From Streptomyces sp. NBC_00539 (GTDB taxonomy: Bacteria > Actinomycetota > Actinomycetes > Streptomycetales > Streptomycetaceae): a stretch of 64,000 bases of DNA. The notes beneath the pieces were generated by a model, which was not told the DNA's origin, made no database searches, and was given only the letters and a program-made list of their open reading frames with translations. Where the stretch lies: NCBI RefSeq assembly GCF_036346105.1, contig NZ_CP107811.1:6343501-6407500 (forward strand), in the 5' to 3' direction. Position numbers and translations under genes: made by a program. This document shows, in pieces, positions 30,548 through 47,462 of the stretch; position 1 is the stretch's first letter, and each line of letters starts with the position of its first letter.

Positions 30548-31801
30548 TCAGTCGATCACGATCTCCGCCTCGAAGCGGGCTCCCAGCTCCCGCAGCCGCT
30601 TCTCGCACTCCTCCCGCGTCGGCGCCGACAGGACCGCCGCGGCCAGGAAGTCCGAGGACAACGCGGCTTCGGCGAGCACCTCGCCGGGCTCCGCGAACAC
30701 CCCGTAGAACTCCACCCACGGCTCCTCCGGCGTGGCCGGGATGCCGCGCACCGTTCCCGGGCGCTTCATCATCAGGACCTGACCCGCCATCCGGAGCGGC
30801 TCCAGCCGGCCGCCCTCCGGGAGGCGCTCCAGGGCCGGCAGCCGCAGTCCCGTGTGCGCGCGCGACGCCAGCTCCACCGGGTGCACCCCGAAGACGGCGG
30901 TCAGCACCTCGCGGATGCGCGCGCCCGCCGGCCGGGCCGCGACCTCGCAGACCACCAGCCGGTCGTCGGGCGTGTGGAACACCTCTGCGTGGAAGGCGAA
31001 GTCGGCCGGGCCGCCCAGCGCCGCGAGCGCCGCCTGCGCCAGCTCCAGCAGCCTCGGCGACAGCGGGTCCGACGGGTCCAGCGTGAGGTCCACCCGGGCG
31101 CCGCTGTCGGCCTGGAAGGACGACAGCTCGTACTGGTACTGCGAGGGCCAGGCCATGACCGTACGGCCGCCCGCCACCACCCCGTCCACGTGGCACATCC
31201 GGCCCGGGACGTACGCCTCCAGCAGCAGGTCCTCGCGGGGACCGGCGCCCGGGGCGAAGGCCTCGGACAGGTGCTGCTCCAGCTCCTCCACGCTCCGCAC
31301 GGTCCGCAGGCCCACGGAGCCGAAGCCGTCGCGCGCCTTGAACACCAGCGGCAGTCCGTGCTCCGCCGCGAACGCACGCGCCTCGTCCGCCGTCCGGGGC
31401 AGGGTGTGCGGGGCGACGGCGATGCCCGCCGCCGCCAGTTTCCGCTTCATCAGGACCTTGTCCCGGAAGGGCAGCACCTCCTCGGGCAGCTGGCCGGGCA
31501 GGCCGAACTTCTCCCGCAGGGCGGCGGCCCGGATCAGGTCCGCCTCGTGGTGCGCGATGACGTGGGTCACCCCGTATTCCTGGATCAGGTCACGGGCGAG
31601 CCGGTCGACGAGGTCCTCGTCGTCGAACGTGTCGATGAGTTCGAGGTGGCGGTATCCGCCGGGCCCGTCCGGGACCGGCTCGCGGCCCGCCACGATCTTG
31701 TCCCGGGCGGCGATCATCACCACGCCGCCGTCGAGCCCCGCCAGCCACCGGTCGTACGGGAAGGGCTCCAGCGGGAACCGGTGCAGTACGAGCGCGCTCA
31801 C
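30548..31801 (-). CDS. ATP-grasp ligase, third of the tandem
   Basis: A 417-residue ATP-grasp protein that should activate a carboxylate as acyl phosphate and join it to an amine. Visible are the N-domain (THVIAHHEADL), the ATP-clamp Lys in LPLVFKARDGFGSVG, the LLLEAYVPG segment and the metal site CEVAARPAG, where the usual Asn after Glu is Ala. Residues about 310-417 form the C-terminal lid. GTG overlaps the previous stop (GTGA), and it is last in the operon. Substrate unknown. Confidence 0.85.
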   Translation of the reverse strand: MSALVLHRFPLEPFPYDRWLAGLDGGVVMIAARDKIVAGREPVPDGPGGYRHLELIDTFDDEDLVDRLARDLIQEYGVTHVIAHHEADLIRAAALREKFGLPGQLPEEVLPFRDKVLMKRKLAAAGIAVAPHTLPRTADEARAFAAEHGLPLVFKARDGFGSVGLRTVRSVEELEQHLSEAFAPGAGPREDLLLEAYVPGRMCHVDGVVAGGRTVMAWPSQYQYELSSFQADSGARVDLTLDPSDPLSPRLLELAQAALAALGGPADFAFHAEVFHTPDDRLVVCEVAARPAGARIREVLTAVFGVHPVELASRAHTGLRLPALERLPEGGRLEPLRMAGQVLMMKRPGTVRGIPATPEEPWVEFYGVFAEPGEVLAEAALSSDFLAAAVLSAPTREECEKRLRELGARFEAEIVID

Positions 31802-33114
31802 GCCGCAACCCCCAGTCCGCGGTCGGCGGCGGGAGCGTGCGCAGGGGTCACGTCGATGCGGATCTCCTCGGTCAGCCGCTCGCAGAGGGCTATCGCCGCG
31901 TCGGTGTCGGCCGCCGTCACCGCGGCGAAGCCGAGCCGGTCCCAGTTGTCCCGCAGCGGCCGGACCTCGTCGCCGGGGCTCACGGAGACCTCCACGGCCA
32001 GCACGTCCGGACGCGCCGCGACCTCCTCCACGCCGGAGACGGCCGTGACCGTGCCTGGGTCCCGGAGGACGAAGCGCGTGCAGGCGCCGGCGCGGGCGAT
32101 CGGGGGTTCGGGCAGTTCCTCGACCAGGCCCAGCGGCCAGGCGACGCCGTACCGCAGGAGGTCGATCCCGTACGCGGCCTCGACCAGCTCGTTGATGTGG
32201 CCGCCGCCGACCCGGTTGTGGGACTCGATGACGACGGGCCCGCGCGAGGTCAGGCGCAACTCGGTGTGGCTCGGCCCGTCGGTCACGCCCATGGTGTCGA
32301 GGAAGTCCGCGACCGCGGTGGTGACCTGCTCGTACGCCTGCGGTACGAGCCGGGCGGGCAGGGCGTGGCCCAGCTCCGCGAAGTGCGTGTCGTCGACGAG
32401 CTTCTCGGTCACGGCGACCACCACGTGGCGGCCGCCGAAGCTGAACCCCTCCACGCTGAACTCGGGGCCGTCGAGGTAGGACTCCATCAGGAACTCGCGC
32501 ACCGTGAACAGCGTCGATCCGCGGTCGGTGCGCCGGCCGCGCAGCTCCTCGATCCGCTCCCACGCCGCTTCCAGGTCGGCGGCGCCGCCGACCCGGATCA
32601 GACCGAAGCTGGCGGTCGCGTCCGTCGGCTTGACGATGAACGGGAAGCCCGCCTTCAGGGCGAAAGCCTCCAGCGACTCGCGGTCGGTGACCCGGCCCCA
32701 GTGGATCGACAACTTGCCGTGTTCCGCCAGGTGTTGGCGCATCAGGCACTTGTTGCGCATCCTGCGGCTCACTTCCGGCCGGGTGCCCGGGAAGCCGAAG
32801 TGGTCGTTCAGCCGCGCCGCCATGTCGAGACCGCCCTCGGTGAGGGAGACGATCGTGTCGAACCCCCAGACCTCGCGGGCCGCCTCGGCCAGCGGCCGTA
32901 CGGTGTCCCACGCGGTGTAGTCGACCATCAGCAGCACGTCGGCCAGCCCGGTCTGGAAGGCGTTGATCTTGTCCGGGTGCTGGAGCAGCACCACGCGGAC
33001 GCCCAGGGCCTTCGCGCGTTCGAGGTGCTGGTCGGTCCCACCGACGAGGAGCATCGTCCGCTCGGTAACTGGTGTGGCCGGTGGGGCGGCTGCGGTCACG
33101 GTTCTCGCGCTCAT
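31798..33114 (-). CDS. ATP-grasp ligase, second of the tandem
   Basis: A 438-residue ATP-grasp enzyme. Residues 20-130 are the pre-ATP-grasp domain (MLLVGGTDQHLERAKALG); the clamp Lys is in PFIVKPTDATASFG; ESYLDGPEFSVEG and TELRLTSRGPVVIESHNRVGGG carry the canonical Glu/Asn metal ligands. A C-terminal domain of about 100 residues follows. It overlaps both neighbours by 4 bp. The closest architecture known to me is that of L-amino-acid ligases (dipeptide forming). Confidence 0.87.
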   Translation of the reverse strand: MSARTVTAAAPPATPVTERTMLLVGGTDQHLERAKALGVRVVLLQHPDKINAFQTGLADVLLMVDYTAWDTVRPLAEAAREVWGFDTIVSLTEGGLDMAARLNDHFGFPGTRPEVSRRMRNKCLMRQHLAEHGKLSIHWGRVTDRESLEAFALKAGFPFIVKPTDATASFGLIRVGGAADLEAAWERIEELRGRRTDRGSTLFTVREFLMESYLDGPEFSVEGFSFGGRHVVVAVTEKLVDDTHFAELGHALPARLVPQAYEQVTTAVADFLDTMGVTDGPSHTELRLTSRGPVVIESHNRVGGGHINELVEAAYGIDLLRYGVAWPLGLVEELPEPPIARAGACTRFVLRDPGTVTAVSGVEEVAARPDVLAVEVSVSPGDEVRPLRDNWDRLGFAAVTAADTDAAIALCERLTEEIRIDVTPAHAPAADRGLGVAA

Positions 33115-34430
33115 GACAAGGCTTCCTTCTTGCTGGGGGTGCTGGGAGTGCCGACGTTGCCGGGCGTGCTGGACGTGATGGGCGTGCTCTGCGTGCTGGA
33201 CGTGTCGTGTGTGCCGGGTGTCACCGTGGTGCGCAGCGCTGCGAACGCAGCGTCGATCCGCTCGGCGGCTTCGGCGGGGCTCGGGGCGTCGACGACGGCG
33301 TAGCCGTGCCGGGTACCGGAGTCGGTGGTGCGCGGCAGGACGTCGCCCGGCCCGTACGGGAAGTGCAGGGCGTGCACGTGCTCCTCGGCGCCGAGCTCCG
33401 CCAGGCCCTCGACGGACTCCAGGCGCCCGGCGGGCAGCCGGAAGAAGCCGACGCCGGCGTACCGCCGCGGGGCGGGCGTCCTGACGTCCTCGCCGGCCAG
33501 GGCCCGGAAGATCGCCGCTTCCATGTCGAGGCCGGTGGCGACCTCCACGAGCAGCGGGATCCGGTCACCGCCCAGCCGGGCCTGCGACTCCACGATGCGC
33601 GGGCCGGCCGAAGTGAGGATGACCTCGGTGTGCGCCGGACCGAACGCGTAGCCGGCCAGGTCGAGCAGTGCGGTGACGGTGGACCGGATCGCCTGCGCGT
33701 CGACGTCGGGGAGCGGGGCAGGGTGGACGTGCCCGGTCTCCACGAACCCGGGCGGACCGCTGGTCTGCTTGGCCGTGATGCCGACGACCTCGTGCCTGCC
33801 CCCGACGGTCAGGGTCTCGACGCTGAACTCCGGGCCCTCCAGGAAGTCCTCGACGATGTACGGGCCTTCGATGCCGGCCGACTTGACCCGCTCGGTCCAC
33901 TCCGCGAGGTCCGCGGCGGTGCGGACGAGGGCGATCCCGCGACTGCCCGCCGAGTTGGCGGGTTTGACCACGGCAGGCAGGCCGAACTCCGCCAGCAACG
34001 GCTCCACTTCGCCGAGCGCGGCGGCTTCCCGGGCGCGGACCACGGAGACGCCGTTGCGGTTGAGCAGACGGCGCATCGCGTTCTTGTCGTTGAGCAGCCT
34101 GACGGACTCCGCGCGGTTGGGCGACAGACCGAGCGCCTCGGCTTCGGCGACCACCGGGGCCATGCTGGACTCGCTGCCCAGGTGCAGGACGTGCTGGATG
34201 CCGTTCTCCACGGCCATCCGGGCCACGAGCGTGCGCAGCGCGGCCTCGTCCTCGAAGTCGACCAGGGCCAGTGCCTCGGAGTGGGCCGCGACCTTGTCGA
34301 GGTAGGCGGCCGGGCGGAGCGCGGGGTCCCAGATGGACCAGACCCGGAATCCGGCCTCGACGGCCTTGCGGACGAGCTGTTCGTACGGCATCACCATCAG
34401 CAGGCGGCCGGCGGTGGGGGAGTGGGTCAT
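33111..34430 (-). CDS. ATP-grasp ligase, first of the tandem, with a Thr/Ser/Pro tail
   Basis: A 439-residue ATP-grasp enzyme similar to its downstream neighbour: PAVVKPANSAGSRG, VEDFLEGPEFSVETL and VESQARLGGDRI, in which the usual Asn ligand is Ala. Its FVETGHVHPAPL and GPAHTEVILT segments are nearly those of the ATP-grasp half of the fusion at 41260. The last 35 residues are a Thr/Ser/Pro tail coded by imperfect short DNA repeats (33132-33223). It starts within the MFS stop (ATGA). Confidence 0.86.
   Translation of the reverse strand: MTHSPTAGRLLMVMPYEQLVRKAVEAGFRVWSIWDPALRPAAYLDKVAAHSEALALVDFEDEAALRTLVARMAVENGIQHVLHLGSESSMAPVVAEAEALGLSPNRAESVRLLNDKNAMRRLLNRNGVSVVRAREAAALGEVEPLLAEFGLPAVVKPANSAGSRGIALVRTAADLAEWTERVKSAGIEGPYIVEDFLEGPEFSVETLTVGGRHEVVGITAKQTSGPPGFVETGHVHPAPLPDVDAQAIRSTVTALLDLAGYAFGPAHTEVILTSAGPRIVESQARLGGDRIPLLVEVATGLDMEAAIFRALAGEDVRTPAPRRYAGVGFFRLPAGRLESVEGLAELGAEEHVHALHFPYGPGDVLPRTTDSGTRHGYAVVDAPSPAEAAERIDAAFAALRTTVTPGTHDTSSTQSTPITSSTPGNVGTPSTPSKKEALS
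33132..33223. repeat. Imperfect short repeats coding the ATP-grasp tail
   Basis: Several degenerate copies of a gggcgtgctggacgt-like unit in the 3' end of the ATP-grasp gene. They translate to a Ser/Thr/Pro-rich unstructured tail absent from the two other ATP-grasps. Confidence 0.55.
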
Positions 34431-35803
34431 GACGTTGCTCCGTTCCGGGCCGACGCGACGACCGGCCGGGCCGGCTGCGCGGCGGCGGTGTTCTGGTCCG
34501 AGGGCGCCTCGACGGGCTCCGGCTCCGCGGCCGCCTCACCGTGCTCCGCGGCGGCCCGTTCCGCCGCGGCCTGGCGCGCATCGCGCAGCGGCAGCAGGGA
34601 CCGGTAGACGAGGATGGCGCCGAGGCCGAAGGCCGCGTACAGCAGGCTCATGCCGACCGGCGAGAGGAAGGCCCCGACGGTCACGCACAGCGAGCCGATG
34701 AGCAGGCCGATGCGGGCGTTGAGACCGTAGGCGGCCAGGTACTTGGTGCGGGCGGCCGGATCCACCAGGTCGGCGAGCAGCGCCTGCTTGACCGGCACGT
34801 TCGCGATCTCGCCGACCGTCAGCAGTACCGCGGCCGCGATCAGGACCCAGCCGCTGTTGCTGACGGCGAGGACCATGTACCCGGCGGTGAAGACCGTGAG
34901 GCCCGCGTAGAGCCGGACGCGGTCGGGCAGCCGGCGGAACATGCTGCCGGCGAAGAGCGCGAACACGACGATCAGGGCGGTGTTGACGGCCCGCAGGATG
35001 CCGAGCATCGCGACGCCGTCCACCGCCGGGAACCAGCGGTCCAGTCCGGCCAGCGCCTGCTCGGGGAAGTCGTCCGCGAGCCGGACGGCGATGTAGTAGC
35101 CGATCTGCACCTCGATGGCCCGGCTGAACGTCGCCGCGGCCAGGAGCCGCAGGAACACCCGGTCCCGGGAGACCGCGAGGTAGCCGCGGAGCATGGCGGG
35201 GATGCCGGCCGCCTGGTCCTTGGCGGATTCCGGGGCGCTCTCGGCGATCCACCACCAGGTGACCAGGGCGGTTGCCGCGGAGAGTCCGGCCGCGGCGGTC
35301 AGCAGCAGCGTGAAGTGCTCGCCGTAGAAGAAACCGCCGATCAGGGCGCCGGCGGTGAACGCCAGGTTGATCGACCAGTAGTTGACGGTGTAGACGAAGT
35401 TCCGGTTCTCGGGGGTGGAGACGTCGATCATCATCGCTTCGGCGGCCGGGGTGGCCGCGCTCGCGAGACAGGTGTTGAGCAGGAAGAGGACGAAGGTCAC
35501 CGCTCCCGACTGCCACCAGGGCGAGTTGGCCAGGGCCAGCAGCCCGAAGGTGAGGGCCGCCCCGACCTCGCCCGCCACCATCAGCGGTTTGCGGCCGTAG
35601 ACGTCGGCCAGGTGGCCGCCGAGGAAGTTGCTGGCGATGCCCGCGGCCGCCACGACCAGGGTGAGCACGCCCGCCGCGGCAGCCCCGTACAGGGCGGCCA
35701 GGTGGATGACCATCAGCGGCATCAGCATGATGCCGAGCAGCCGCTGGACGAATCCCACGCCCAGCCTCAGTTTGATGTTCGGGTGCAACGCGCGGAAGTT
35801 CAT
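34427..35803 (-). CDS. MFS transporter of the ATP-grasp operon
   Basis: A 458-residue major facilitator with 12 helices. Motif A reads GGHLADVYGRKPL in loop 2-3; PAAEAMMIDVSTPENRN is typical of drug or peptide exporters of the MFS MdtH/TetA-like type. A Glu/Ala/Pro tail of about 50 residues is cytoplasmic. Its end overlaps the first ATP-grasp gene by 4 bp. It probably exports the cluster product or gives self-resistance. Confidence 0.87.
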   Translation of the reverse strand: MNFRALHPNIKLRLGVGFVQRLLGIMLMPLMVIHLAALYGAAAAGVLTLVVAAAGIASNFLGGHLADVYGRKPLMVAGEVGAALTFGLLALANSPWWQSGAVTFVLFLLNTCLASAATPAAEAMMIDVSTPENRNFVYTVNYWSINLAFTAGALIGGFFYGEHFTLLLTAAAGLSAATALVTWWWIAESAPESAKDQAAGIPAMLRGYLAVSRDRVFLRLLAAATFSRAIEVQIGYYIAVRLADDFPEQALAGLDRWFPAVDGVAMLGILRAVNTALIVVFALFAGSMFRRLPDRVRLYAGLTVFTAGYMVLAVSNSGWVLIAAAVLLTVGEIANVPVKQALLADLVDPAARTKYLAAYGLNARIGLLIGSLCVTVGAFLSPVGMSLLYAAFGLGAILVYRSLLPLRDARQAAAERAAAEHGEAAAEPEPVEAPSDQNTAAAQPARPVVASARNGATS

Positions 35804-35841
35804 GCTCCGGCTCCCTCTCGGACGGCGCGACGGCGGTGGGC

Positions 35842-36861
35842 TCAGGGCTTGGCGGTCAGCGCGGCGGGCTGCCCCGCGGGCCGGGTGACGGGCTGTTCGA
35901 CGGCGGGGGCGGCGGGCGCTTCGTCCTCGTTCAACATGCTGAGGTAGCGCTCGCCCGTGTCGGGGAGGACCGTGACGATCGTGGCGCCGATGTAGTCCGG
36001 GTGCCCGGCCAGCCGGGCGCAGGCGTGGGCGACGGCGCCGGAGGAGACCCCGGCGAAGATCCCCTGGCGGCGGGCGAGGGCGCGGGCGGCGAGCATGGCG
36101 TCTTCGTCGGAGACCGTCACCACGCTGTCGATCAGGTCGACGGCGGTGGTGGGGGCGACGAAGCCGCCGTTGAGACCGGGGATGCGGTGCAGCCCGCCGA
36201 CGCCCTGGGACAGGACCGGCGAGTTCTCCGGTTCGACCGCGACGACGCGTACCTCCGGGTTCTGCTCCTTCAAGTACTTCGCGATGCCGCTGAGGGTGCC
36301 GCCGGTGCCCACACCGCAGACCAGTACGTCGATCCGCCCGGCCGTGTCGGTCCAGATCTCCGGGCCGGTCGTCTCGTAGTGGGCCCGCACGTTGTCGGGG
36401 TTCTCGTGCTGGCACGGGAACCAGGAGCCCGGCGTCGCCGCGTGCAACTCCTCGGCCTTGGCGATCGCACCGGGGTATCCGCTCTCGCGCGGGGTCTGCA
36501 CCACCTCCGCGCCCAGCGCCTTGAGCAGGGAGACCCGCTCGGCGGTGGCGCTGTCGGGCAGCACGATCACGCAGCGGTAGCCGCGGGCGGCACAGAACGC
36601 GGCCAGCGAGATGCCCGTGTTGCCGGACGTCGCCTCGATGACGGTGCCACTTCCGGCCTTGAGGTCGCCCCGGAGTTCCGCCGCCCGCAGCATGTACAGG
36701 GCGGCGCGGTCCTTGCTGCTGGACATCGGGTTGGCCGATTCCAGCTTCGCCAGCACCTCGGTGCCCGGGGCGGTGTCGTCGAAGCGCAGGCGGATCAGGG
36801 GGGTCGAGCCGACCAAGTCCTCGATGCTGTCGGCGATGTCGCGCTTCTGGCGGCTTTCCAC
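35842..36861 (-). CDS. Cysteine synthase-family PLP enzyme
   Basis: A 339-residue fold-type II PLP enzyme with Lys50 (SSSKDRAAL), the TSGNTGIS loop and GTGGTLSG phosphate loop, all canonical for O-acetylserine sulfhydrylase. With the serine acetyltransferase gene upstream it can make cysteine or another beta-substituted alanine from O-acetylserine. The GTG at 36861 has GAGGAA upstream; the N-terminal extension of the frame is rejected. A Pro/Ala tail of 20 residues is unusual for CysK. Confidence 0.88.
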   Translation of the reverse strand: MESRQKRDIADSIEDLVGSTPLIRLRFDDTAPGTEVLAKLESANPMSSSKDRAALYMLRAAELRGDLKAGSGTVIEATSGNTGISLAAFCAARGYRCVIVLPDSATAERVSLLKALGAEVVQTPRESGYPGAIAKAEELHAATPGSWFPCQHENPDNVRAHYETTGPEIWTDTAGRIDVLVCGVGTGGTLSGIAKYLKEQNPEVRVVAVEPENSPVLSQGVGGLHRIPGLNGGFVAPTTAVDLIDSVVTVSDEDAMLAARALARRQGIFAGVSSGAVAHACARLAGHPDYIGATIVTVLPDTGERYLSMLNEDEAPAAPAVEQPVTRPAGQPAALTAKP

Positions 36862-36989: not shown

Positions 36990-37601
36990 CTACCAGGAGC
37001 CGGCCGAGGCGGTGACGGCGTACAGGTCCTCCATGGGCTGCGGAGCCTGGCCGACGGCCTTGATCACGGCGGTGGCGGCGAGCACCCGGGCGCCCGGCGG
37101 CACGTCCTTGTTCACCAGGGCCTGGGCCCCGATGACGGCGTGCTCACCGATGGTGACGGGGCCCAGCACGGTCGCGTTCGTACCGAGCACGACGTCGTGG
37201 CCGACCACCGGATGGCGGCGTTCCCCCGCGGCCCGGTTGTTGTCGCTCCACCAGCCCACCGCTCCCAGCGTGACCTGGTGGTAGATGGTCACGTCGTCCC
37301 CGACCACCGCGGTCTCGCCGATCACGACGGCCGCGCCGTGGTCGATGAACACCCGCCGGCCGAGCACCGCACCGGGATGGATCTCCACGGCGGTGCCCCG
37401 GCGGGCGTACCAGGCGATGGCCCGCGCGATGAACCGCAGCCCGCGCAGGTGCAGCCGGTGTGCGACGCGGTGCGCCCACAGGGCGGGCAGTGCCGCGTGC
37501 AGCAGGGCTTCGCGGCGGTTGCGCATGGACGGGTCCCGGGCGAGCACCACGTCCAGGTCTTCCTTCATGATCCGCAGGAGGCCGGGCCGGTCGTCCGCCA
37601 T
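36990..37601 (-). CDS. cysE: Serine O-acetyltransferase
   Basis: A 203-residue CysE-type protein. The N-terminal helices (MKEDLDVVLARDPSMRNRREALL) and the left-handed beta-helix (IHPGAVLGRRVFIDHGAAVVIG, with the catalytic Asp-His) are complete; VTLGAVG and the C-terminal loop follow. It makes O-acetylserine from serine and acetyl-CoA. The last residues end in ASAGSW rather than the usual Ile that forms the CysK-docking tail, so the complex with CysK may be lost. The ATG shares one base with the upstream stop. Confidence 0.9.
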   Translation of the reverse strand: MADDRPGLLRIMKEDLDVVLARDPSMRNRREALLHAALPALWAHRVAHRLHLRGLRFIARAIAWYARRGTAVEIHPGAVLGRRVFIDHGAAVVIGETAVVGDDVTIYHQVTLGAVGWWSDNNRAAGERRHPVVGHDVVLGTNATVLGPVTIGEHAVIGAQALVNKDVPPGARVLAATAVIKAVGQAPQPMEDLYAVTASAGSW

Positions 37602-38200
37602 CAGACGAGCACCCCGGCGGGCTCACCGAGGGGGCCGAGCTCGGCGCCGAGGGGGCTGAGCTCGGCGACGAGGGCGCGGGTCAGGCTCTCCAGCCGCGCC
37701 ACGACCTCCGGATCGGTGTAACGGCCGTCCGTGCCGTCCGGCACGGTGACGCCGCCGATGGCGACCGGCTCGTGTCCGACGACCAGTGCGCCGCACCGGC
37801 CGAGTACGCCGACCAGGCCGGGCTGGGCGTCGATCCCGCCGCGCGCCCCGGGGGAGGCGCTGGCCACGGCCGTCACCTTGCCGGTCAGCGGGCTTTGGCC
37901 GCCCGGCCGGGACAGCCAGTCCAGGGCGTTCTTGAGCGCGCCGGGCATCTCGCCGTTGTAGGAGGGGGTGCTGATGAACAACGCGTCCGCGCCGGCGACC
38001 AGTTCCTTGGCCGCGCGCACGGCCGCCGACCCGTCGGCGAGCTCCAGGCCGGCCTCGTAGAACGGCAGGCCGGCAACGGGGAGCAGCACGGTCTCGTGGT
38101 CACCGGGCAGCTCGCCCAGGATGTGGCGCACGGTCGCCAGCACGGCGTTGTTCAGCGAGTCCCGGCGCGTACTGCCGGATATCAGGACGATCTTCGCCAC
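37601..38200 (-). CDS. NAD(P)H-dependent FMN reductase
   Basis: A 199-residue flavodoxin-fold reductase. ISGSTRRDSLNNAVL binds the FMN phosphate, TPSYNGEMPGALKNALDWLSRP is the family signature, and a Gly-rich ASASPGARGG loop follows. It would supply reduced flavin. The GTG start is preceded by GAGAGGGG. It is first in the cysE-cysK-MFS-ATP-grasp operon, and the cysE start overlaps its stop. No flavin monooxygenase partner is in the window. Confidence 0.87.
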   Translation of the reverse strand: MAKIVLISGSTRRDSLNNAVLATVRHILGELPGDHETVLLPVAGLPFYEAGLELADGSAAVRAAKELVAGADALFISTPSYNGEMPGALKNALDWLSRPGGQSPLTGKVTAVASASPGARGGIDAQPGLVGVLGRCGALVVGHEPVAIGGVTVPDGTDGRYTDPEVVARLESLTRALVAELSPLGAELGPLGEPAGVLV

Positions 38201-39447: not shown

Positions 39448-39576
39448 GTCGGTCCCCCCGCGTTGGCTTTCGATCCGCTCGGACGCGGGCCGGGTGCCTG
39501 CGCCCGGGCGGGATCCTAGCGCCGCACCCGTGGTCCGCCCAGAGGTTCGGCGGCGCGGGGACGGGGACATGGGTGA

Positions 39577-39605
39577 GGCGTGCCGCGGGATTCCCGCGGC
39601 ACGCC
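39577..39605. terminator. Terminator hairpin of the lamin-tail gene
   Basis: A perfect 13-bp stem (ggcgtgccgcggg / cccgcggcacgcc) with a 3-nt loop, 57 bp after the stop of the leftward gene. Confidence 0.7.
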
Positions 39606-39661
39606 GTCCCAGGAGCACGTCACGTCACCGTCGGCGCGGGACGTGACGGGCGGTGGACCGG

Positions 39662-40138: not shown

Positions 40139-40338
40139 GGAAATGGCCCCTTCCAACGTTGGGCCGCCCCGGGGTTCGAACTGGCCGGGCGGGCTCCGAG
40201 CGGTTCTCGGCAAATGGCCGAGGAGCCATACTTTGGCCCACTTCCGCCGCCCGGCACGGTGGACTCGCCCTGTGTTGCCTAATACAGACATGTCGGTAAC
40301 TGTCCCTTTACCAAAGGAATGCAGCTGAAAGTCAGGAA

Positions 40339-40350
40339 ATAACCGGTTAT
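40339..40350. other. 12-bp palindrome in an AT-rich gap
   Basis: ataaccggttat is a perfect palindrome followed on the + strand by gtcgtttttt. It lies between the lipoprotein stop and the lamin-tail start, in one of the most AT-rich patches of the window. It may be a terminator or an operator. Confidence 0.35.
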
Positions 40351-40383
40351 GTCGTTTTTTCGTATGTGTGGGCGCGTGAGGGT

Positions 40384-41106
40384 TCAGGAGATCCCGTACC
40401 ACTGGCTGCCCCAGCCGGTGTTGATGGTGCTCGTGGACTGCTCGGCGAGGTTCACGGTGGCGGGCAGCGAGCTCTGACCGGTCAGCACCGTGCTGTACCG
40501 CAGCTTCGGCGGCGCCAGACCGGCGTTGACCGAGATGCCGGCCCCCGTGGACTTCAAGGTGAGGGCGTTGGTGGCCCAGTTGCCGTTGAGCAGCAGGGCG
40601 ATGAAGTACGTCCCGGGGGCGGCGGTGAACGGCTTGCCCAGCGGCAGCGGCTTGGCCACCGCATCGCCCATCAGCTGCGGTGAGATGTCCGAGGTGGCCG
40701 CGCGCAGGGTGCCGGCGCCGTCGTACACACCGAGGTAGCAGTTGGCGAGCTGGGCGCTCGGGTCGACACCGGCCAGGCCCAGCCAGATGTTCGACCAGGT
40801 GATCTGCTCGCGCAGGACGACCCGTACGAGGGTGAGCCGCCCGCCGACCCCGGCGGCCGACTGGGCGGTGACGTGCCCCGCGTCGTTGGGGTCGCCGGTC
40901 CAGGCCAGCAGGTTCTGGTCCTGCGGCCGGGGCCCCTGGTACCCCTCGGCCGCGGGCCCCCCGTCGTGCGCGGGCGCCGGAGCCGAAGGGGTGGCGCCCC
41001 CGTGTCCCCGCTCGCCCGGGGAGGTGCAGCCGGCCACGAGGAACAGGGCGGCGAGGGCCCCGAGGAGGCCCTTCGCGGCGGTGGCGGTGATGGTCCGGGT
41101 GCGCAT
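40384..41106 (-). CDS. Lipoprotein, unknown function
   Basis: A 240-residue lipoprotein: MRTRTITATAAKG, hydrophobic core, lipobox LVAGCTS (Cys near 26). After a Gly/Pro-rich spacer the mature part is a beta-rich domain with ITWSNIWLGLAG and YFIALLLNGNWATN, like tail-fibre or jelly-roll proteins. GGGGGG precedes the ATG. It lies between the two ATP-grasp operons; a link to them is not shown. Confidence 0.7.
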   Translation of the reverse strand: MRTRTITATAAKGLLGALAALFLVAGCTSPGERGHGGATPSAPAPAHDGGPAAEGYQGPRPQDQNLLAWTGDPNDAGHVTAQSAAGVGGRLTLVRVVLREQITWSNIWLGLAGVDPSAQLANCYLGVYDGAGTLRAATSDISPQLMGDAVAKPLPLGKPFTAAPGTYFIALLLNGNWATNALTLKSTGAGISVNAGLAPPKLRYSTVLTGQSSLPATVNLAEQSTSTINTGWGSQWYGIS

Positions 41107-41190
41107 GGTCCCCCCATGAGGCGCGGTGTGCCGACGCGCCATGATCACACGGCCGGGGCCGGACGCCACAGGGCGGCCCCGCACGCACGC

Positions 41191-41259: not shown

Positions 41260-43536
41260 TCAGCGGGCCCGTGCCCCCTGCTGCGCCTCGATGCCGACGC
41301 GCAGCTCGCCCACCGCGGCGTCCAGCGAGCGCGTCACCGCGGCCGCGGCCGGGCCGGTGGCGATGACGTGCCCGAGCCGGTCGTACGCGTTTTCGGCGGG
41401 CCGTACGGCGGCACCCGTCGCGGCGGTGACGGTGACGGCCGTGACACCGTCGACGGCGCGCGCGGCGTCGACGCCCTCGACGCCGCGCAGCGTCCCCGCG
41501 CCCCCGGGGAGCAGGAACCTGATGCCGGCGCAAGCGGAGTGCGAGGGAGTCAGGTCCAGCGGCATCCCGGTCGCGACCCGCAGCTGCTGCTCCAGCAGGT
41601 CGATGCCGGTGGCCTGCCGGACCGCCTCCGGAATCATGCCGCCCGCCAGTCGCGGGTTGACCTCGATCACCGCGACTCCGCTCCCGGTGAGCTTGACCTC
41701 CGTGTGGGTCGGGCCGAGTTCCCAGCCGATGGCCTTGAGGGCCGCGCTGACCGTCTCGGCGACGGCGCCCGCGACCGGCCCGGTGAGGGGGGCGGGGAAC
41801 AGGTGCCCGGTCTCCACGAAGTGCGGGCCGGCCGTGACCTGCTTGGCGGTGATGCCGACACAGGTGGCGACGCCGTCGTGGGAGAACATCTCCACGCTGA
41901 ACTCGGGACCGTCGAGGTACTCCTCCAGGAGCACGGTCCGCGCCGTGGGCAGCCCCCGGGCGTTGGCCGTCACCGCGAGGACGCGCTCCGCGTGCGCCGC
42001 GACCTCTTCGGCGGTGGAGCACAGCAGGACGCCGTTCGAGCCGGAGTCGTCGGCGGGCTTCACCACGCACGGCAGACCGACGGCGCGTACCGCACCGTCC
42101 ACGTCGGCCGCGTCCGTCAGGATCGCGAACCGCGGCTGCCCGACGCCCGCGTCCCGCAGGACACGGCGCGTCGTCGCCTTGTTGCGGCAGGCGGCCACGG
42201 CGTCCGCCGTGTTGCCGGCCAGACCCAGCCAGTCGGTCAGCCCGGCCACCGCGGGAACGTAGAAGTCGCTCGTCGTCGTCACCCCGACCAGCTCCTCGCG
42301 GGGGTACCGCCGGCTGATGACGGCCCGCAGTTCGGCCGGCGAGCCGGTGTCGCAGACGACGACCTCGGCGCCCGTTTCCGCCAGGCCCGCGTACCGCTGC
42401 GGCCCGGCCGTCAGCAGCACCGGGGTCAGCCCCAGCTCCCTCGCCCGGGACAGCGCGATCATGCCGGTGCCCGTGGTGTTGGACTCGACGAACAGCACCC
42501 GCCTGGGCAGGTCCCGGGGCCGGCGCACCTCGGCGCGCGACCACTGGCTCACATGGGTCCCGTAGGCGACCTGGGCCGGCTCGGAGGCCAACGGCAGGTC
42601 GGCCACCTTGTGCTCGGTCCAGTACTCGTCGCTGTACACGGTCTCCGTGTAGCGGTCACCGCGGTCCGGGAAGATGCCGACGATCCGGCTGCCCGGCTCC
42701 GCGCGGGCTGCCACGTCGGTGAGCACCCGGTAGACCGACCCGGAGGTGTTGCCCGCGAAGATCTGCTGCTCCCCGGCCAGGGCGCGGGCCGCGGCGAACG
42801 CCTCGTGGTCGTTGAGCCAGTGCACCTCGTCGATGATCCCGCGGTCGAGGTTGTGCGGCGACAGGCTGTTGCCGAGGCCGCTCTGGAGCCGCTTGGGCAC
42901 GTCCGGCTGCTCGAAGAGGGCACTGCCCACGCAGTCCACGCCGACCGACCGCAGCCCCGGCAGGCGCCGCCGCAGGGCGCGGGTGCTGCCGCACAGGGAG
43001 CCGCCGCTGCCCACCGCCCCCACCAGTACGTCCACGGTGCCCAGGTCGCGCAGCAGTTCGTCGGCGAGTACGCGGTAGGCGCGCGGGTTGTCCGGGTTGG
43101 TGTACTGCCGCGGCCAGAAGGCGCCGGGCATGTCCCGCATCAGCGCGTCCAGTCGCTCCAGGCGGGCGCCCTGCCAGCCCTGGTCGGTCATCTTGGGGAC
43201 CACGTGGACCTCGGCGCCCAGCGAGCGCAGCTTCGCCATGGTCATGCGGTCGATACGGGGATCGGTGACGATGTGCACAGGGTGGCCCAGCGAGCGGCCC
43301 ACGAGCGCCACCCCGAGGGCCATCGTGCCGGACGAACTCTCCACGATGGGAGCTCCCGGCAGCAGCGCCCCGATGCGGCGCGCCTCCTCGATGGCACTCT
43401 TGGCCACCCGGTCCTTCATGCCGAAGGGATTGGCGAGTTCCAGCTTCGCGTAGACCTCGGTCCCGTCCGGCACATCGAGGTCGAGCCGGACGAGCGGGGT
43501 GTGCCCGACCATGTCGTAGACGGTTTGAAAGAGCAT
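41260..43536 (-). CDS. Fusion of a cysteine-synthase-like PLP enzyme and an ATP-grasp ligase
   Basis: A 758-residue two-enzyme protein. Residues 1-325 are a fold-type II PLP domain with Lys41 (FGMKDRVA), ESSSGTMA and GSGGSLCG; it is similar along its length to the enzyme at 16158. Residues about 350-758 are an ATP-grasp ligase starting RRVLFVESNTTGTG, with CVVKPADDSGSNGV, LEEYLDGPEFSVEMF and the canonical metal site IEVNPRLAGG. I infer that the PLP domain replaces the phosphate of a phospho-amino acid by an amine (DabA-type) and the ATP-grasp half couples the product. No frameshift is needed; the frame is continuous. Confidence 0.88.
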   Translation of the reverse strand: MLFQTVYDMVGHTPLVRLDLDVPDGTEVYAKLELANPFGMKDRVAKSAIEEARRIGALLPGAPIVESSSGTMALGVALVGRSLGHPVHIVTDPRIDRMTMAKLRSLGAEVHVVPKMTDQGWQGARLERLDALMRDMPGAFWPRQYTNPDNPRAYRVLADELLRDLGTVDVLVGAVGSGGSLCGSTRALRRRLPGLRSVGVDCVGSALFEQPDVPKRLQSGLGNSLSPHNLDRGIIDEVHWLNDHEAFAAARALAGEQQIFAGNTSGSVYRVLTDVAARAEPGSRIVGIFPDRGDRYTETVYSDEYWTEHKVADLPLASEPAQVAYGTHVSQWSRAEVRRPRDLPRRVLFVESNTTGTGMIALSRARELGLTPVLLTAGPQRYAGLAETGAEVVVCDTGSPAELRAVISRRYPREELVGVTTTSDFYVPAVAGLTDWLGLAGNTADAVAACRNKATTRRVLRDAGVGQPRFAILTDAADVDGAVRAVGLPCVVKPADDSGSNGVLLCSTAEEVAAHAERVLAVTANARGLPTARTVLLEEYLDGPEFSVEMFSHDGVATCVGITAKQVTAGPHFVETGHLFPAPLTGPVAGAVAETVSAALKAIGWELGPTHTEVKLTGSGVAVIEVNPRLAGGMIPEAVRQATGIDLLEQQLRVATGMPLDLTPSHSACAGIRFLLPGGAGTLRGVEGVDAARAVDGVTAVTVTAATGAAVRPAENAYDRLGHVIATGPAAAAVTRSLDAAVGELRVGIEAQQGARAR

Positions 43537-43545
43537 GTCTCTTCC

Positions 43546-44547
43546 TCAGACGTTGGTGGGGGCCGCCGCGGGGGCGGAGGCGGCGAGCGGACGGAACCCT
43601 CCGTAGGACCAGTCGTCGCCGTGGCCAAGGGAGCGGTGGAGCATCGTGGTGCCGGGCAGCGACGCACACGCGGCGAGCGCGATCTCGGCCTTGAGCGAGG
43701 TCTCGGGATCGTCGTGGGGCAGCAGGATGCCGAGCATCGTCCCGCTGTGGGCGCAGGCGATGCCGAGCCCGTCGATGTCGCGGCAGATGCGCTGGAGGGT
43801 GGGCAGGGAGGGGCGGGGCATGTGCCGCGCGTTCAGCTCGGCGCTGCGGGTGGCGACGCGGCCCAGCGCGCGCAGGTCCGAAACGAGGATCGCGTCGCGA
43901 GCCTGGTCGAGGAGGCCGGCGTACTCGCGCTGTTCCTGCGCGCTGCGCGCCGTGGCCGCGTGGTTGTGGCTGATGGTGTCGACCTGTCCGCCTTCGTCGT
44001 AGGCGATGACGGTCATGGAAGGTACGGTTCCCAGGCGTTCGCGGAGCCGGACCTCACGGTGGCTGAACGCCACGATCTCGTCGTACATGACGCCGTCCGA
44101 CGGTTCTATGCCACGCAGCAGTGCCTCGATGTCCGCCGGGGTGAAGCGGACGTCCAGGGCGTCGGCCACCGCGCGCGCCGTGGCCACGAGGTCCGCCGAC
44201 GAGCTGGCCATGCCCTTGCCTTCGGGCAGCTCGCTGCCGATGCGCAGCTGGCCGCCGCCGCTGTGGCCCGCGGCGCGAAGGGCCCGCTGCGCGAGCTTCG
44301 CGGCCTTGCGTTTGTGGCGGGGCGCCACGTGGATGGCCGTCGCGTCCGGTTCGTGCGCGAAGGTCGCCGTGGACCAGGCCGCCACCGGTGACGTGACCAT
44401 GAAATGCTCGCCGGTGCCGGGCAGCACGCCCTGGAGGAGCTCCCCGAACGTTCCGAAGGCCCTGCCGACGCCGGCGTTGCGCGTGCGCGGCAGTCCGGCC
44501 GGTTCGGCCAGCCCGTCGAGCTCAGGCGTGTACGGCTGCACTGTCAT
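43546..44547 (-). CDS. GHMP kinase, PduX/DabC-like amino-acid kinase
   Basis: A 333-residue GHMP-fold kinase. The ATP loop is LPEGKGMASSSADLVAT, as in PduX L-threonine kinase; AFGTFGELLQGVLP is the N-terminal substrate loop, SDGVMYDEIVAF the region after helix B, and CAHSGTMLGILLP motif 3. It should phosphorylate the hydroxyl of threonine or serine. It lies 9 bp before the PLP/ATP-grasp gene and overlaps the lyase gene by 26 bp, so the three are one translational unit. Confidence 0.85.
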   Translation of the reverse strand: MTVQPYTPELDGLAEPAGLPRTRNAGVGRAFGTFGELLQGVLPGTGEHFMVTSPVAAWSTATFAHEPDATAIHVAPRHKRKAAKLAQRALRAAGHSGGGQLRIGSELPEGKGMASSSADLVATARAVADALDVRFTPADIEALLRGIEPSDGVMYDEIVAFSHREVRLRERLGTVPSMTVIAYDEGGQVDTISHNHAATARSAQEQREYAGLLDQARDAILVSDLRALGRVATRSAELNARHMPRPSLPTLQRICRDIDGLGIACAHSGTMLGILLPHDDPETSLKAEIALAACASLPGTTMLHRSLGHGDDWSYGGFRPLAASAPAAAPTNV

Positions 44548-46042
44548 GCTCTTCTCCTCCGTGTCCGCTACGGGTGGACCGGGCGCGGGCCGCCCATTCC
44601 TCTCCCAGCCGTTCGAGTTCCTCGTCCTGCGCCCGCAGTACGGCCTTGACCGCTTCCGGCCGGGCGGAGCCCTCGGAGCGCGGCGCGTTCAGGGCGTGCC
44701 GTACGTCGAAGGTTCCGGCCAGCACCGACTCCGGCGCCGTCAGCTCGAAGCCGAGTTCCGCCGCCGTCCGCTTGAGCAGGCCCGCGTCGGTCCGGGCAGG
44801 CGCGAGCCCGGCCTCCATCGCGGCGACGATGTAACGGCCCGAGATCACCTGGGCCCGGCGCCAGGGCACTCCTTCGCGCAGCGTCAGGGCGTTGGCCAGG
44901 GCGAAACCGCCGAGGAACTCCCGCTCGCACGCCTCGCTCATGCGCTTCGTGTCGAAGCGCACGTGTTCCAGGACCGCCGTGGAAAGCCGCAGCACGCTCT
45001 CGAAGGTCTCGAACGCGAAGGACAGCTGCGATCCCGCTTCCTTCGACACCTCGACCGAGTTGGAGAACGGAGTGTTGCGCTGCCCGAGCACCGCGTCCAT
45101 GTGGGCCGAGGACAGGTGCGCCGACTTGCCCCGGATCCGTTCGAGCACCGGGAAGTTCTTCTTCTGCGGCATCGCAGACGAGATCCCGGAGAGCTCGTCC
45201 GGCAGGTCCAGATAGCCGTAGGCGCTGCTGCCCCACGCCATCAGATCGGTGGTGAAACGGCTCAGGGCCACTGCGAACACACTGAACTCGGCCGTGATCT
45301 CCAGGACCCAGCCGCGGTACGCGACCGAGGTCAGGGCGAGGGGCTGCACCCTTGTGAAGCCGAGCAGGGCGGCCAGCCGTCCGCGGTCCCACGCCAGCTC
45401 CTGGCCCGACATGGCGCCGGCGCCCAGGGGGCACGCGTCGATACCGTCGTAGGTGGCGAGCAGGCGCCGCGCCGTGTGCAGCACCTGCTCGGACAGCGCC
45501 GCGAGGTAGAACCCGGGCGAGATGATCTGAGCGGCCTGCAAGTGGGTGTAGCCGGGCATCGGGTCGTCGGCGTACCGACCGGCGAGCCCTCCCGCCGCCC
45601 GGCCGAAGGCCAGCAGCGCCTCGGCGGCCGATACCAGTCGCTCACGTCCGGACATCAACTGGGCGCAGGCCTGGAGGTCGTTGCGGCTGCGGTCCACGTG
45701 CCAGGCGGCGACCGGCTCGGCGAGCCGCGTCTCGACGTGGCGCTCCAGCGAGAAGGCGATGTCCGACATGTTCGCCTCGCGCCCCGCCAGCAGTTGCCCG
45801 GCGGTCACGGAGTCGAGCAGCCCGCGGAGTTCCGCGGCCTGGCCGGCCGTCACCAGCCCCATCCGCAGGTATTCGGCGACGAGCGCCTTCTCGATCGCGA
45901 TGTAGTGGGGCAGGAGATGCTCGGCCTCGTACCGGAACTGCGGGTCGAGGACCTCTTCCCGCAGCAGGTCGCTCGGTCCTTTGCCGATGCGTCCGCTCAG
46001 CGGCAGCGCGTCGCTCCCACCGTTGTCGTGGTCAGGGTGCAC
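44522..46042 (-). CDS. Argininosuccinate lyase-like enzyme (DabB-like)
   Basis: A 506-residue lyase of the fumarase/ASL superfamily. The signature loop is SGISSAMPQKKNF (usual GSSxMPQKxNP, here Phe instead of Pro), and DRSRNDLQA and PGYTHLQAAQ hold the first two conserved regions. It is longer than the 460 residues of ArgH. It should eliminate fumarate from an N-succinyl-type adduct. No arg genes are near. GTG at 46042 is the only plausible start before the domain; its ribosome site is weak. It is first in the operon. Confidence 0.85.
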   Translation of the reverse strand: MHPDHDNGGSDALPLSGRIGKGPSDLLREEVLDPQFRYEAEHLLPHYIAIEKALVAEYLRMGLVTAGQAAELRGLLDSVTAGQLLAGREANMSDIAFSLERHVETRLAEPVAAWHVDRSRNDLQACAQLMSGRERLVSAAEALLAFGRAAGGLAGRYADDPMPGYTHLQAAQIISPGFYLAALSEQVLHTARRLLATYDGIDACPLGAGAMSGQELAWDRGRLAALLGFTRVQPLALTSVAYRGWVLEITAEFSVFAVALSRFTTDLMAWGSSAYGYLDLPDELSGISSAMPQKKNFPVLERIRGKSAHLSSAHMDAVLGQRNTPFSNSVEVSKEAGSQLSFAFETFESVLRLSTAVLEHVRFDTKRMSEACEREFLGGFALANALTLREGVPWRRAQVISGRYIVAAMEAGLAPARTDAGLLKRTAAELGFELTAPESVLAGTFDVRHALNAPRSEGSARPEAVKAVLRAQDEELERLGEEWAARARSTRSGHGGEEHDSAAVHA

Positions 46043-46374
46043 CTGGAATCCGTTTTCTCTCTTGGGGGACGGGAATCGGCAGGGCGCCGTTCTTCCGGGA
46101 AGGGCGCCGGCATGACCGCGCGTCGCTCCCGGGTGACCCGCGCGGGAGCCGGGGCGGGCGGGGCCGGCACCTTCCCGACGCCGCGGATCCGGGCCGAGCG
46201 GCTGACCGGAGGCAGGAAGATCAGCGGTGCGCGCACCACGCCGAGGTTGACGGGCGCCGTACGGAAGCCCTCGTGACCCACCAGGGTGAAGCCGGCGGCG
46301 ACGCCGGCGGCCTGTCAACGGGGCGGGGCGGCAGCTGGGTTCGGGCATCGCGCGCCTTCGGACAGCTCACTCAT
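45997..46374 (-). pseudogene. Coding-like frame interrupted by an in-frame TGA
   Basis: A 125-codon frame begins at ATG 46374 after GAGG and runs MSELSEGARCPNPAAAPPR, then TGA (46315-46317), then continues with very high third-position G/C (AAGVAAGFTLVGHEGFRTAP ...) into the start of the lyase gene. Either a broken gene, or a 19-residue peptide followed by a second short frame (GTG 46281). No family recognised. Confidence 0.35.
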
Positions 46375-46487
46375 CTGGTCCTCACAATCCCTGCTCGGTC
46401 GGCGATTGACCCACGGTCGGCCGGCGTTGGCCGGGGCGGACGCCGGGTTTCGGCACCTCACGGAAATCGACCAACCCCGAAAAGAAA

Positions 46488-46511
46488 AAACCAACCGTGT
46501 GGTTTTGTCAA
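46488..46511 (-). promoter_or_regulatory. Promoter/operator element, copy A (leftward)
   Basis: On the minus strand it reads TTGACAAAAC-N6-GTTGGTTT, with a consensus -35 at 46511-46506 and a T-rich -10 region (TTTTCT) 17 bp later. It faces the lyase operon. Confidence 0.6.
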
Positions 46512-46629: not shown

Positions 46630-46653
46630 TTGACAAAACAGCTCAGTTGGTTT
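46630..46653 (+). promoter_or_regulatory. Promoter/operator element, copy B (rightward)
   Basis: TTGACAAAAC-N6-GTTGGTTT with -35 TTGACA at 46630-46635 and TGTTCT 17 bp later. Identical to copy A outside the central six bases; it drives the transketolase-like gene. Confidence 0.6.
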
Positions 46654-46700
46654 GTTCTGGCGAGGTAGTGGCTTGCTGGACGGCTTCGGAAGGACCGAGC

Positions 46701-47462
46701 ATGCTCACGAAGGCACCACCAGACGACGTGGCCACACGACTCGCCGTGGACATCCGCCGCAAGGTCGGCGAGCTGAGCGCCTCGCCGAGCGGCGTGCGCG
46801 CCGACGGCAGCACGTCGATCGCCGACCTCCTCGCCGTCCTCTGCGGCGAGGTGCTGCGCCGGCCGGCCGGAGGGGGGCCGGGGGAGGTAGGCGACCACCT
46901 GATCCTCAGCAAGGGGCAGGCGTCCGGGGCCCTTTGCGCGGCGCTCGCCTCCACGGGTGCGGTGCCGCAGCCGCAGTGCGCGACGTACGCCGACGAGGGC
47001 AGCCGACCGGGCGGTCGCCTCGTGAAACGCCTGCCGGGCGTGGACTTCTCCACGGGCGCGCTCGGCCACGGGCTGTCACTGGGCTTGGGCGTCGCACTGG
47101 CCGAACGCTGCTACGGGCGCGGCGGCCGCGCGTTCGTGGTCCTCGGTGACGGGGAACTCCGGCAAGGCTCCCACTGGGAGGCGGCCGTGGGGGCGTCCGA
47201 CCTCGCAGCCGACAACCTGACCGCGATCGTGGACCACAACGAGCGGGAGGCCGACGGCCGGAGCGAGGGCACCCTGTCCCTGCGACCGCTGGTGGACAGG
47301 TGGCTCGGCTCCGGCTGGCGCGTGCTGTCCATCGACGGGCACGACCACGACCAGATCAGGGAGGCCCTGCAGGGCCCCGTGGAGCCGGGCCGGCCCACGG
47401 CCGTCATCGCCCACACGATCAGGGCGCGCGGCGTCCCCGGCCCGCACGATGAGCGGGCCTGA
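46701..47462 (+). CDS. Transketolase N-terminal (TPP-binding) subunit, orphan
   Basis: A 253-residue protein equal to the first domain of transketolase. ILSKGQASGALCAAL and GALGHGLSLGLGVALA hold the catalytic His region, and VVLGDGELRQGSHWEAA with IVDHNE is the TPP/Mg motif (GDGE ... N). The second (pyrimidine-binding) domain is absent, and no gene for it is nearby. Split transketolases in antibiotic clusters transfer two-carbon units. AAGGA precedes the ATG. Without a partner it may be inactive or use one from elsewhere. Confidence 0.85.
   Translation: MLTKAPPDDVATRLAVDIRRKVGELSASPSGVRADGSTSIADLLAVLCGEVLRRPAGGGPGEVGDHLILSKGQASGALCAALASTGAVPQPQCATYADEGSRPGGRLVKRLPGVDFSTGALGHGLSLGLGVALAERCYGRGGRAFVVLGDGELRQGSHWEAAVGASDLAADNLTAIVDHNEREADGRSEGTLSLRPLVDRWLGSGWRVLSIDGHDHDQIREALQGPVEPGRPTAVIAHTIRARGVPGPHDERA

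Follow-up and report, generated by a model that had tools for sequence, protein, structure and literature searches.

The closest described relatives of the locus considered here are the 2,3-diamino-acid cassettes of the friulimicin, laspartomycin, mureidomycin, and gausemycin clusters, which combine a pyridoxal phosphate (PLP) enzyme of the CysK/SbnA type with a lyase of the argininosuccinate lyase (ASL) family. The parts of PMC4052310 that deal with 2,3-diaminobutyrate present DabA as a relative of cysteine synthase, assign DabB to VioK-like deaminases, name no ATP-grasp enzyme, and derive the diaminobutyrate of mureidomycin by beta-replacement on threonine. Excerpts of other papers report cysteine synthase and ASL/adenylosuccinate lyase genes in the gausemycin-type cluster of strain B188M101, whose product contains 2,3-diaminobutyrate (PMC12471526), and dabA-C in a cluster with functions including cysteine synthesis and argininosuccinate cleavage (PMC11117518, a Kitasatospora paper). 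In the dapdiamide/APV clusters of Pantoea, as excerpted from PMC3535389, 2,3-diaminopropionate is made via a cysteine-synthase homologue and ATP-dependent ligases are present. An earlier note on the DNA studied here had equated DabA-C with a kinase, a cysteine synthase, and an ASL; the last two functions are among those listed in the Kitasatospora paper, and the deaminase reading of DabB differs from this assignment.

We analyzed a 64,000-nucleotide stretch of Streptomyces sp. NBC_00539 (contig NZ_CP107811.1, forward-strand positions 6,343,501 to 6,407,500), referred to below as the window. Its region 30548..47462 holds two leftward operons. Operon 1 encodes an ASL-family lyase, a GHMP kinase, and a fusion of an SbnA-like PLP domain with an ATP-grasp domain; operon 2 encodes an FMN reductase family protein, CysE, CysK, an exporter of the major facilitator superfamily (MFS), and three further ATP-grasp proteins, here called g03, g02, and g01. 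The gene content listed for both operons in the earlier note, with four ATP-grasp domains in total, was borne out by Pfam and NCBIfam, and several neighboring genes of both operons have stop/start overlaps, as expected of real operons. The two operons are probably separate systems on either side of three core genes, with operon 1 the remnant of a diamino-acid cluster free of non-ribosomal peptide synthetase (NRPS) genes; operon 2 most likely represents another system. Operon 1 shares its PLP enzyme and lyase families with the four antibiotic cassettes, but differs from them in lacking an NRPS and in the presence of a GHMP kinase and an ATP-grasp domain. No NRPS match was found in the whole window by BLAST with NRPS proteins of two related clusters (L021 and L023, E ≤ 1e-4).

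By its predicted enzyme families, the trio of kinase, SbnA-like/ATP-grasp fusion, and ASL has the composition of a 2,3-diamino-acid cassette, as the earlier note had proposed. Among solved proteins, the best relative of the fusion's PLP domain is SbnA of staphyloferrin B biosynthesis, and its score against the SbnA equivalog model TIGR03945 is 245.2 bits, below the cut-off of 349.95. Unlike SbnA, this domain has an ASL and a kinase as partners and is fused to an ATP-grasp. Like DabA, the fusion is a PLP-dependent cysteine-synthase homologue (PALP, 5e-51); no VioK/SbnB-like deaminase corresponding to DabB was detected by profile searches among the ten operon genes and the five additional genes of the Streptomyces cirratus locus described below. 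By profile and predicted fold, the fused ATP-grasp is nearest to the L-amino acid ligases BL00235 (3vot), BacD, and RizA, with an identity of about 20%. It shares with them the LAL_C2 domain, whose cut-off of 29.4 bits is exceeded by the fusion, g02, and g03 (g01 falls below it at 26 bits), and differs from them in its fusion to a PLP enzyme. Long conserved stretches are retained in the window fusion in an alignment of seven rows.

The kinase has a GHMP fold according to a structure model compared with Foldseek; mevalonate kinases match best, and homoserine kinase is within the first 20 matches. The name PduX is absent among the matches listed, and as no PduX reference was compared, the label "PduX-like" given by the earlier note is supported at the level of the GHMP superfamily and no further. 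The operon 1 ASL scores 222.6 bits against the ArgH model TIGR00838 (cut-off 279.5) and is distinct from the other ArgH-type gene of the genome, a 28% relative at 5.62 Mb. Its relatives in the PDB include 6g3d, a lyase acting on ethylenediamine-disuccinate. Given the score below the ArgH cut-off and the separate ArgH- and CysK-type genes elsewhere in the genome, we reject primary arginine or cysteine metabolism for the operon genes, an assignment that the earlier note had named as one that would overturn its proposal. A second trio, whose fusion is 66% identical to that of the window, is present in the same genome at about 735 kb, within an NRPS cluster at about 0.72–0.75 Mb (L021).

The best named relative, the locus of S. 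cirratus JCM 4738 (L144), matches the window with about 93–94% DNA identity over the operons. Both operons occupy the same places there, the fetched stretch ending inside the last ATP-grasp gene. In L144, operon 1 starts with genes for a 448-aa ATP-grasp protein and a 428-aa MFS protein ahead of the ASL gene; transcribed away from it, on the opposite strand, are genes for a transketolase in two parts and for an exporter of the EamA family. This locus, too, gave no NRPS match by BLAST. Relative to L144, the window lacks about 2.1 kb with the EamA gene and the C-terminal half of the transketolase, and about 2.4 kb with the ATP-grasp gene and most of the MFS gene. As short remnants of both the ATP-grasp gene and the MFS gene are still readable in the window (Table 1), this is a loss in the window and not a gain in S. 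cirratus. The operon 1 cluster of the window strain is thus the ruin of a fuller cluster, and the complete antimetabolite cluster that the earlier note had seen in this strain is not supported, since the ligase and the exporter of operon 1 have been deleted. The upper boundary at 47462 set in that note is the end of the plus-strand N-terminal half of the transketolase, a gene that it did not mention and that has its place in the history of operon 1.

The 448-aa ATP-grasp protein of S. cirratus exceeds the threshold of NF005543; with the model of dapdiamide A synthase it reaches 206.5 bits, far under the cut-off of 840. A further likeness to the dapdiamide/APV clusters is the pairing of a cysteine-synthase homologue for the diamino acid with ATP-dependent ligases; operon 1 differs from them in having an ASL and a kinase where they have an ornithine-cyclodeaminase homologue, and in the window its DdaF-like gene is deleted, with no intact DdaF-like gene elsewhere in the genome at E ≤ 1e-45. 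Fifteen other stretches with homologues of the 448-aa protein represent varied clusters, and the diamino-acid trio was labelled in none of them.

Between the window and S. cirratus, the ASL, kinase, and fusion are 93–96% identical, with ratios of nonsynonymous to synonymous substitution rates (dN/dS) of 0.10, 0.13, and 0.23, respectively. The transketolase remnant is 75% identical to the S. cirratus copy, with dN/dS of 0.54. For the FMN reductase, CysE, CysK, MFS, g03, and g02 genes of operon 2 the ratio ranges from 0.03 to 0.26, and for two flanking genes, encoding the carboxypeptidase and a VOC protein, it is 0.22 and 0.16.

To place these observations in the genus, we surveyed 296 genomes sampled from a larger group. 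A full-length fusion (E ≤ 1e-150) occurs in 15 of them, at 16 loci, and at all 15 loci other than that of the window, NRPS genes lie beside the fusion within the stretch fetched, as detected by BLAST with NRPS proteins from L021, or from L021 and L023. The kinase matched at E ≤ 1e-20 in 83 genomes, and 40 of these loci were examined. An ASL gene is present in 28 of the 40, and in each of these 28 it is accompanied by an NRPS gene, an ATP-grasp gene, and a PLP gene that is SbnA-like or related. In the remaining 12, neither ASL nor ATP-grasp was labelled, so the kinase is not confined to the diamino-acid cassette. Genomes of named species yielded 126 fusion relatives; the 80 ranked highest by their match to the fusion contain the SbnA-like domain (80 loci), ATP-grasp (78), ASL (70), and the kinase (68); the ranking partly builds in the PLP and ATP-grasp counts, and 16 of the 80 loci are shorter than 20 kb. 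NRPS genes were found in 56 of the 64 named loci of at least 20 kb, and one of the eight scored without them, L151, has an NRPS-like gene by another reading. Genes in the fetched loci were called with a custom GC3 script that fails on the low-GC loci L207, L212, and L223, which were re-read by tblastn.

As the ATP-grasp accompanies the cassette in NRPS-linked loci, it belongs to the cassette, and its presence alone is no sign of NRPS-free coupling. The earlier note had described the cluster as NRPS-free, with ATP-grasp ligases in place of NRPS modules. The first part of this description agrees with the lack of NRPS genes in the window and in L144, and with the dapdiamide-synthase-like ATP-grasp and MFS genes in operon 1 of the latter; for the fused ATP-grasp, the second part is contradicted by the NRPS genes beside all 15 other genus loci. 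The function of the L-amino-acid-ligase type ATP-grasp in these cassettes (all 28 kinase-chosen loci with ASL, 78 of the 80 named loci), which is fused to the SbnA-like enzyme in the lineage of the window, is a concrete gap for several antibiotic classes and the best lead from this locus. Among the open-licence papers listed in literature searches, we found none describing an ATP-grasp in such cassettes, which does not prove that none exists; KasC of kasichelin, which belongs to another pathway, is an ATP-grasp with an ASL-like annotation in the excerpted text of PMC12305651.

Several loci met in these surveys show other arrangements. Kinase relatives of about 50% identity lie beside a distant PLP gene in L092 (7456–9318), L093, and similar loci; L092 also carries DUF364 and FecCD siderophore-type transporter genes, a second setting for the kinase family. 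The same trio is found in L166 and L177, with no NRPS detected in the stretch fetched. In L166 it adjoins a lantibiotic-dehydratase-like gene and a gene for S-adenosylhomocysteine hydrolase, and the neighbors in L177 look similar; here the cassette has possibly left its NRPS setting a further time. In Paenibacillus and Tumebacillus (L207, L212, L222), ASL, SbnA-like, ATP-grasp, and threonine-aldolase-like genes occur together, and the kinase was not detected in these three loci. Of the 80 named loci, 25 have a threonine-aldolase-like gene close to the cassette. Whether a cassette includes the kinase might tell those for diaminobutyrate from those for diaminopropionate.

A tree of the fusion, built quickly and without bootstrap, has 64 rows: the window copy, the NRPS-borne copy of the same genome, and the copies of 62 named loci in which a full-length gene was called. 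It pairs the window and S. cirratus copies (node value 100) and joins them to that of S. hygroscopicus, whose locus L145 has NRPS genes (100). The surrounding set is mostly NRPS-borne; the label "no NRPS" was assigned manually, and L151 and the short contigs L177 and L182 are among those that bear it. This suggests that the operon 1 cassette was captured from an NRPS cluster. S. cirratus also holds both trio copies, the window-type one in the fuller NRPS-free cluster, and the ancestor of operon 1 was very probably an NRPS-free cluster of diamino-acid and ATP-grasp genes. In this locus, a diamino-acid cassette stands apart from any NRPS cluster and has then decayed, a warning to genome miners not to infer a product from the window copy. 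S. cirratus JCM 4738, rather than the window strain, is the better subject for studying operon 1. Cirratiomycins and antrimycin contain diaminobutyrate, and the NRPS cluster L157/L021 might be that of cirratiomycin. The production of these compounds by S. cirratus and S. xanthocidicus is mentioned in the excerpt of PMC4282715.

The reactions and products proposed here for the two operons are read from protein families. In operon 1, the GHMP kinase would phosphorylate L-threonine (or serine), and the SbnA-like domain would exchange the phosphate for an amine, with L-aspartate as the simplest donor. Release of fumarate by the ASL-family enzyme would then yield 2,3-diaminobutyrate (or 2,3-diaminopropionate); both aspartate as the donor and the release of fumarate are suggested by the families to which the enzymes belong. 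The fused L-amino-acid-ligase domain would couple a second amino acid to the diamino acid or to an intermediate. The S. cirratus product would be extended by one more residue through the dapdiamide-synthase-like ATP-grasp and exported by the MFS and EamA proteins. The window strain would make at most the diamino acid or its dipeptide, because the second ligase, most of the MFS exporter gene, the C-terminal half of the transketolase, and EamA have been deleted. We tentatively suggest, without holding it to be likely, that the ancestral locus encoded an undescribed NRPS-free route to a diamino-acid antimetabolite, in which the kinase/fusion/ASL cassette, captured from NRPS clusters, came to work with two exporters, a dapdiamide-synthase-like ATP-grasp, and a transketolase in two parts that builds a second unusual residue. 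In the same vein, what diaminobutyrate-type cassettes of actinomycetes at large produce and pass on may be a dipeptide formed by the ligase instead of the free amino acid.

Operon 2 has a different distribution. As its marker we used g01, counted if the match was full-length with at least 45% identity; shorter or weaker matches occur in 14 more genomes, of which two (L069 and L070) were examined. The marker is present in 18 of the 296 genomes (19 loci). These genomes and the 15 with the fusion overlap solely in the window genome, so that g01 occurs without the fusion in 17 of 18; an overlap of about one genome (18 x 15 / 296) is expected by chance. At the 18 operon 2 loci outside the window (L051–L068), CysK is present in 15 and CysE in 13, and none has a match to the operon 1 kinase or ASL. 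The single pathway with four ligases envisaged in the earlier note is at odds with this distribution, which agrees with the caveat in the same note that the operons may be separate. At the syntenic site of another genome (G102, locus L069), the three core genes stand side by side, their proteins being 85–87% identical to those of the window; operon 1 is absent there, g01 is reduced to its end, and the fusion of G102 is found in an NRPS cluster (L086). The three core genes belong to neither system.

Some observations weigh against this separation or against the diamino-acid reading of operon 1. Both operons co-occur in S. cirratus; the earlier note had held that it would be refuted if they never did so in other genomes, and beyond the window strain and S. 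cirratus no other case is known. The operons may thus function jointly in this clade. One genome with g01 (G186) also holds a more distant quartet of kinase, SbnA-like, ATP-grasp, and ASL genes, in an NRPS cluster on another contig (L115). L069 keeps a stub of operon 2, and no remnant of operon 1 was found there. The purifying selection on the trio is a pairwise average and may predate a recent decay. In the excerpt of PMC12471526, the gausemycin cluster of INA-Ac-5812, one of two published producers, is given as lacking the cysteine-synthase and ASL genes. Finally, the ATP-grasp may serve a purpose other than peptide ligation.

If the operons formed a joint pathway, operon 1 would make the diamino acid, the three ATP-grasps of operon 2 would couple it, and the operon 2 MFS protein would export the peptide. 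The operons are 3 kb apart in both strains, operon 2 is the nearest source of a ligase and an exporter after operon 1 lost its own, and the trio genes stay under purifying selection. We nevertheless consider such a pathway unlikely, as g01 mostly occurs without the fusion and with its own amino-acid supply genes, the operons are separated by core genes, a dedicated ligase and exporter are encoded in operon 1 of S. cirratus, and the regulatory-like element described below is found at operon 1 only. The intact and constrained state of the window trio, whose local partners are gone, would also fit a spare supply of diamino acid working in trans for the NRPS cluster at about 0.72–0.75 Mb, where the second trio of this genome resides. 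This is very improbable, since that cluster already has a complete trio and S. cirratus has both copies as well, with the window-type one in the fuller NRPS-free cluster.

Another option concerns the chemistry of the cassette. Enzymes of the PurC/PurB kind convert a carboxylate and aspartate into an amide and fumarate, and the ATP-grasp and the ASL could form such an amidation pair instead of a diamino-acid route with a peptide ligase. An ATP-grasp is present in all 28 kinase-chosen loci that have an ASL, and in another cassette (L028) the two are physically fused in one protein, which passes NF002563 at 734 bits. We regard this as improbable, because both profile and fold place the fused ATP-grasp nearest to L-amino acid ligases, and the same 28 loci have an SbnA-like or related PLP gene, which amidation would not need. 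We consider the reading of operon 1 as a decayed diamino-acid cluster separate from operon 2 the most probable one.

A promoter/operator-like element is found at operon 1 and not at operon 2. It has two perfect copies in the 7.5-Mb genome, both at operon 1 and divergent, the pair lying between the two divergent units; one further copy, with 3 mismatches, is on another contig. For the element reading toward operon 1, 0 copies are expected by chance. The arms are 83% complementary, and 24 bases including the spacer are identical in S. cirratus in both copies. As the genome has just two perfect copies, we reject a mobile element as an explanation for the inverted-repeat pair.

Relatives of the transketolase remnant occur in varied clusters, and in all four loci examined (L136–L139) they adjoin a gene for the C-terminal half, with no diamino-acid trio labelled. 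The closest relative of the pair found outside S. cirratus is in L136 (2357–5931), with 72–73% identity to its halves; it is beside an aspartate-kinase-like gene, as read from the start of that gene, hinting that such transketolases act on aspartate-derived aldehydes.

Operon 2 looks complete. In it, the same two families as in the cysteine synthase complex are encoded side by side; unlike cysE-cysK, the pair is located in an operon with ATP-grasp and MFS genes. CysE scores 170.6 bits against TIGR01172 (cut-off 210.65), and CysK 344.3 bits against TIGR01139, just under the cut-off of 350.95. The latter is an extra copy, as two other CysK-type genes in the genome are 42–43% identical to it. CysE and CysK would supply O-acetylserine and cysteine (or a beta-substituted alanine), the three ATP-grasps would assemble a small peptide, and the MFS protein would export it, in a cluster type that is mostly NRPS-free: by BLAST with the L021 NRPS proteins, an NRPS-like gene is near 5 of the 18 loci outside the window (L055, L056, L062, L065, L068). 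Operon 2 looks like a member of a family of small-peptide clusters with a dedicated supply of cysteine or O-acetylserine, and with low confidence we propose a peptide containing cysteine or a beta-substituted alanine as its product. According to Pfam, the relative in L059 adds asparagine-synthase-like, PrpF-like, acyl-CoA-dehydrogenase, and amidohydrolase genes, and that in L063 adds genes for an AMP-ligase and a homologue of a mycothiol-dependent nitroreductase. In the close relatives L051, L052, and L056, a small gene, absent from the window and S. cirratus, lies between CysK and MFS; in L051 and L056 it belongs to the tautomerase family.

Table 1. Genes, gene remnants, and regulatory-like elements in the region studied (positions in the window).
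Feature	Position	Strand	Evidence
g01, divergent ATP-grasp, operon 2	30548..31801	-	CPSase_L_D2 2.5e-07
g02, ATP-grasp of L-amino-acid-ligase type, operon 2	31798..33114	-	ATP-grasp_4 8e-25, LAL_C2 1.1e-22
g03, ATP-grasp of L-amino-acid-ligase type, operon 2	33111..34430	-	LAL_C2 9.9e-17, ATP-grasp_4 5.8e-16
Putative MFS exporter, operon 2	34427..35803	-	MFS_1 1.1e-29
CysK-type O-acetylserine sulfhydrylase homologue, operon 2	35842..36861	-	TIGR01136 352.0 bits, cut-off 344.15
Serine acetyltransferase (CysE/EpsC), operon 2	36990..37601	-	EpsC NF041874 158.5 bits, cut-off 150
NADPH-dependent FMN reductase family protein, operon 2	37601..38200	-	FMN_red 9.6e-33
Three core genes between the operons: D-Ala-D-Ala carboxypeptidase, lamin-tail-domain protein, putative lipoprotein	38509..41184	-	Pfam for the first two; no Pfam match for the putative lipoprotein
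Fusion of SbnA-like PLP domain (residues 1-~335) and ATP-grasp (~340-758), operon 1	41260..43536	-	PALP 5e-51, ATP-grasp_4 3.5e-24, LAL_C2 2.1e-21
GHMP kinase, putative L-threonine (or serine) kinase, operon 1	43546..44547	-	GHMP_kinases_N 4e-10
ASL-family C-N lyase, operon 1	44522..46042	-	Lyase_1 3e-23
MFS gene stub	46141..46281	-	Residues 350-422 of the 428-aa S. cirratus protein, gapped; tblastn 44%/73 columns, E 3.4e-11
Stub of the dapdiamide-synthase-like ATP-grasp gene, first nine codons	46348..46374	-	9/9 residues identical to the start of L144:4772-6118
Promoter/operator-like element TTGACAAAAC-N6-GTTGGTTT-N-TTCT	46483..46511	-	Reads toward operon 1
Second, divergent copy of the promoter/operator-like element	46630..46658	+	Reads toward the transketolase half
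Decaying transketolase N-terminal half	46701..47462	+	Transketolase_N 1.3e-16

Outside this region, the window contains a third SbnA-family PLP gene at 16158–18556 on the plus strand (TIGR03945, 249 bits), which overlaps an MFS gene. Its relatives of 55–59% identity are near an ATP-grasp gene in L032 and L036–L040; L032 and L037–L039 are similar in sequence, and L040 is shorter. In L036, further genes of the cluster encode a methyltransferase, an ABC permease, an enolase-like protein, and a DUF364 "heavy-metal chelation" protein, and the whole looks like a metallophore system. Of this type of cluster, the window has the PLP and MFS genes only.

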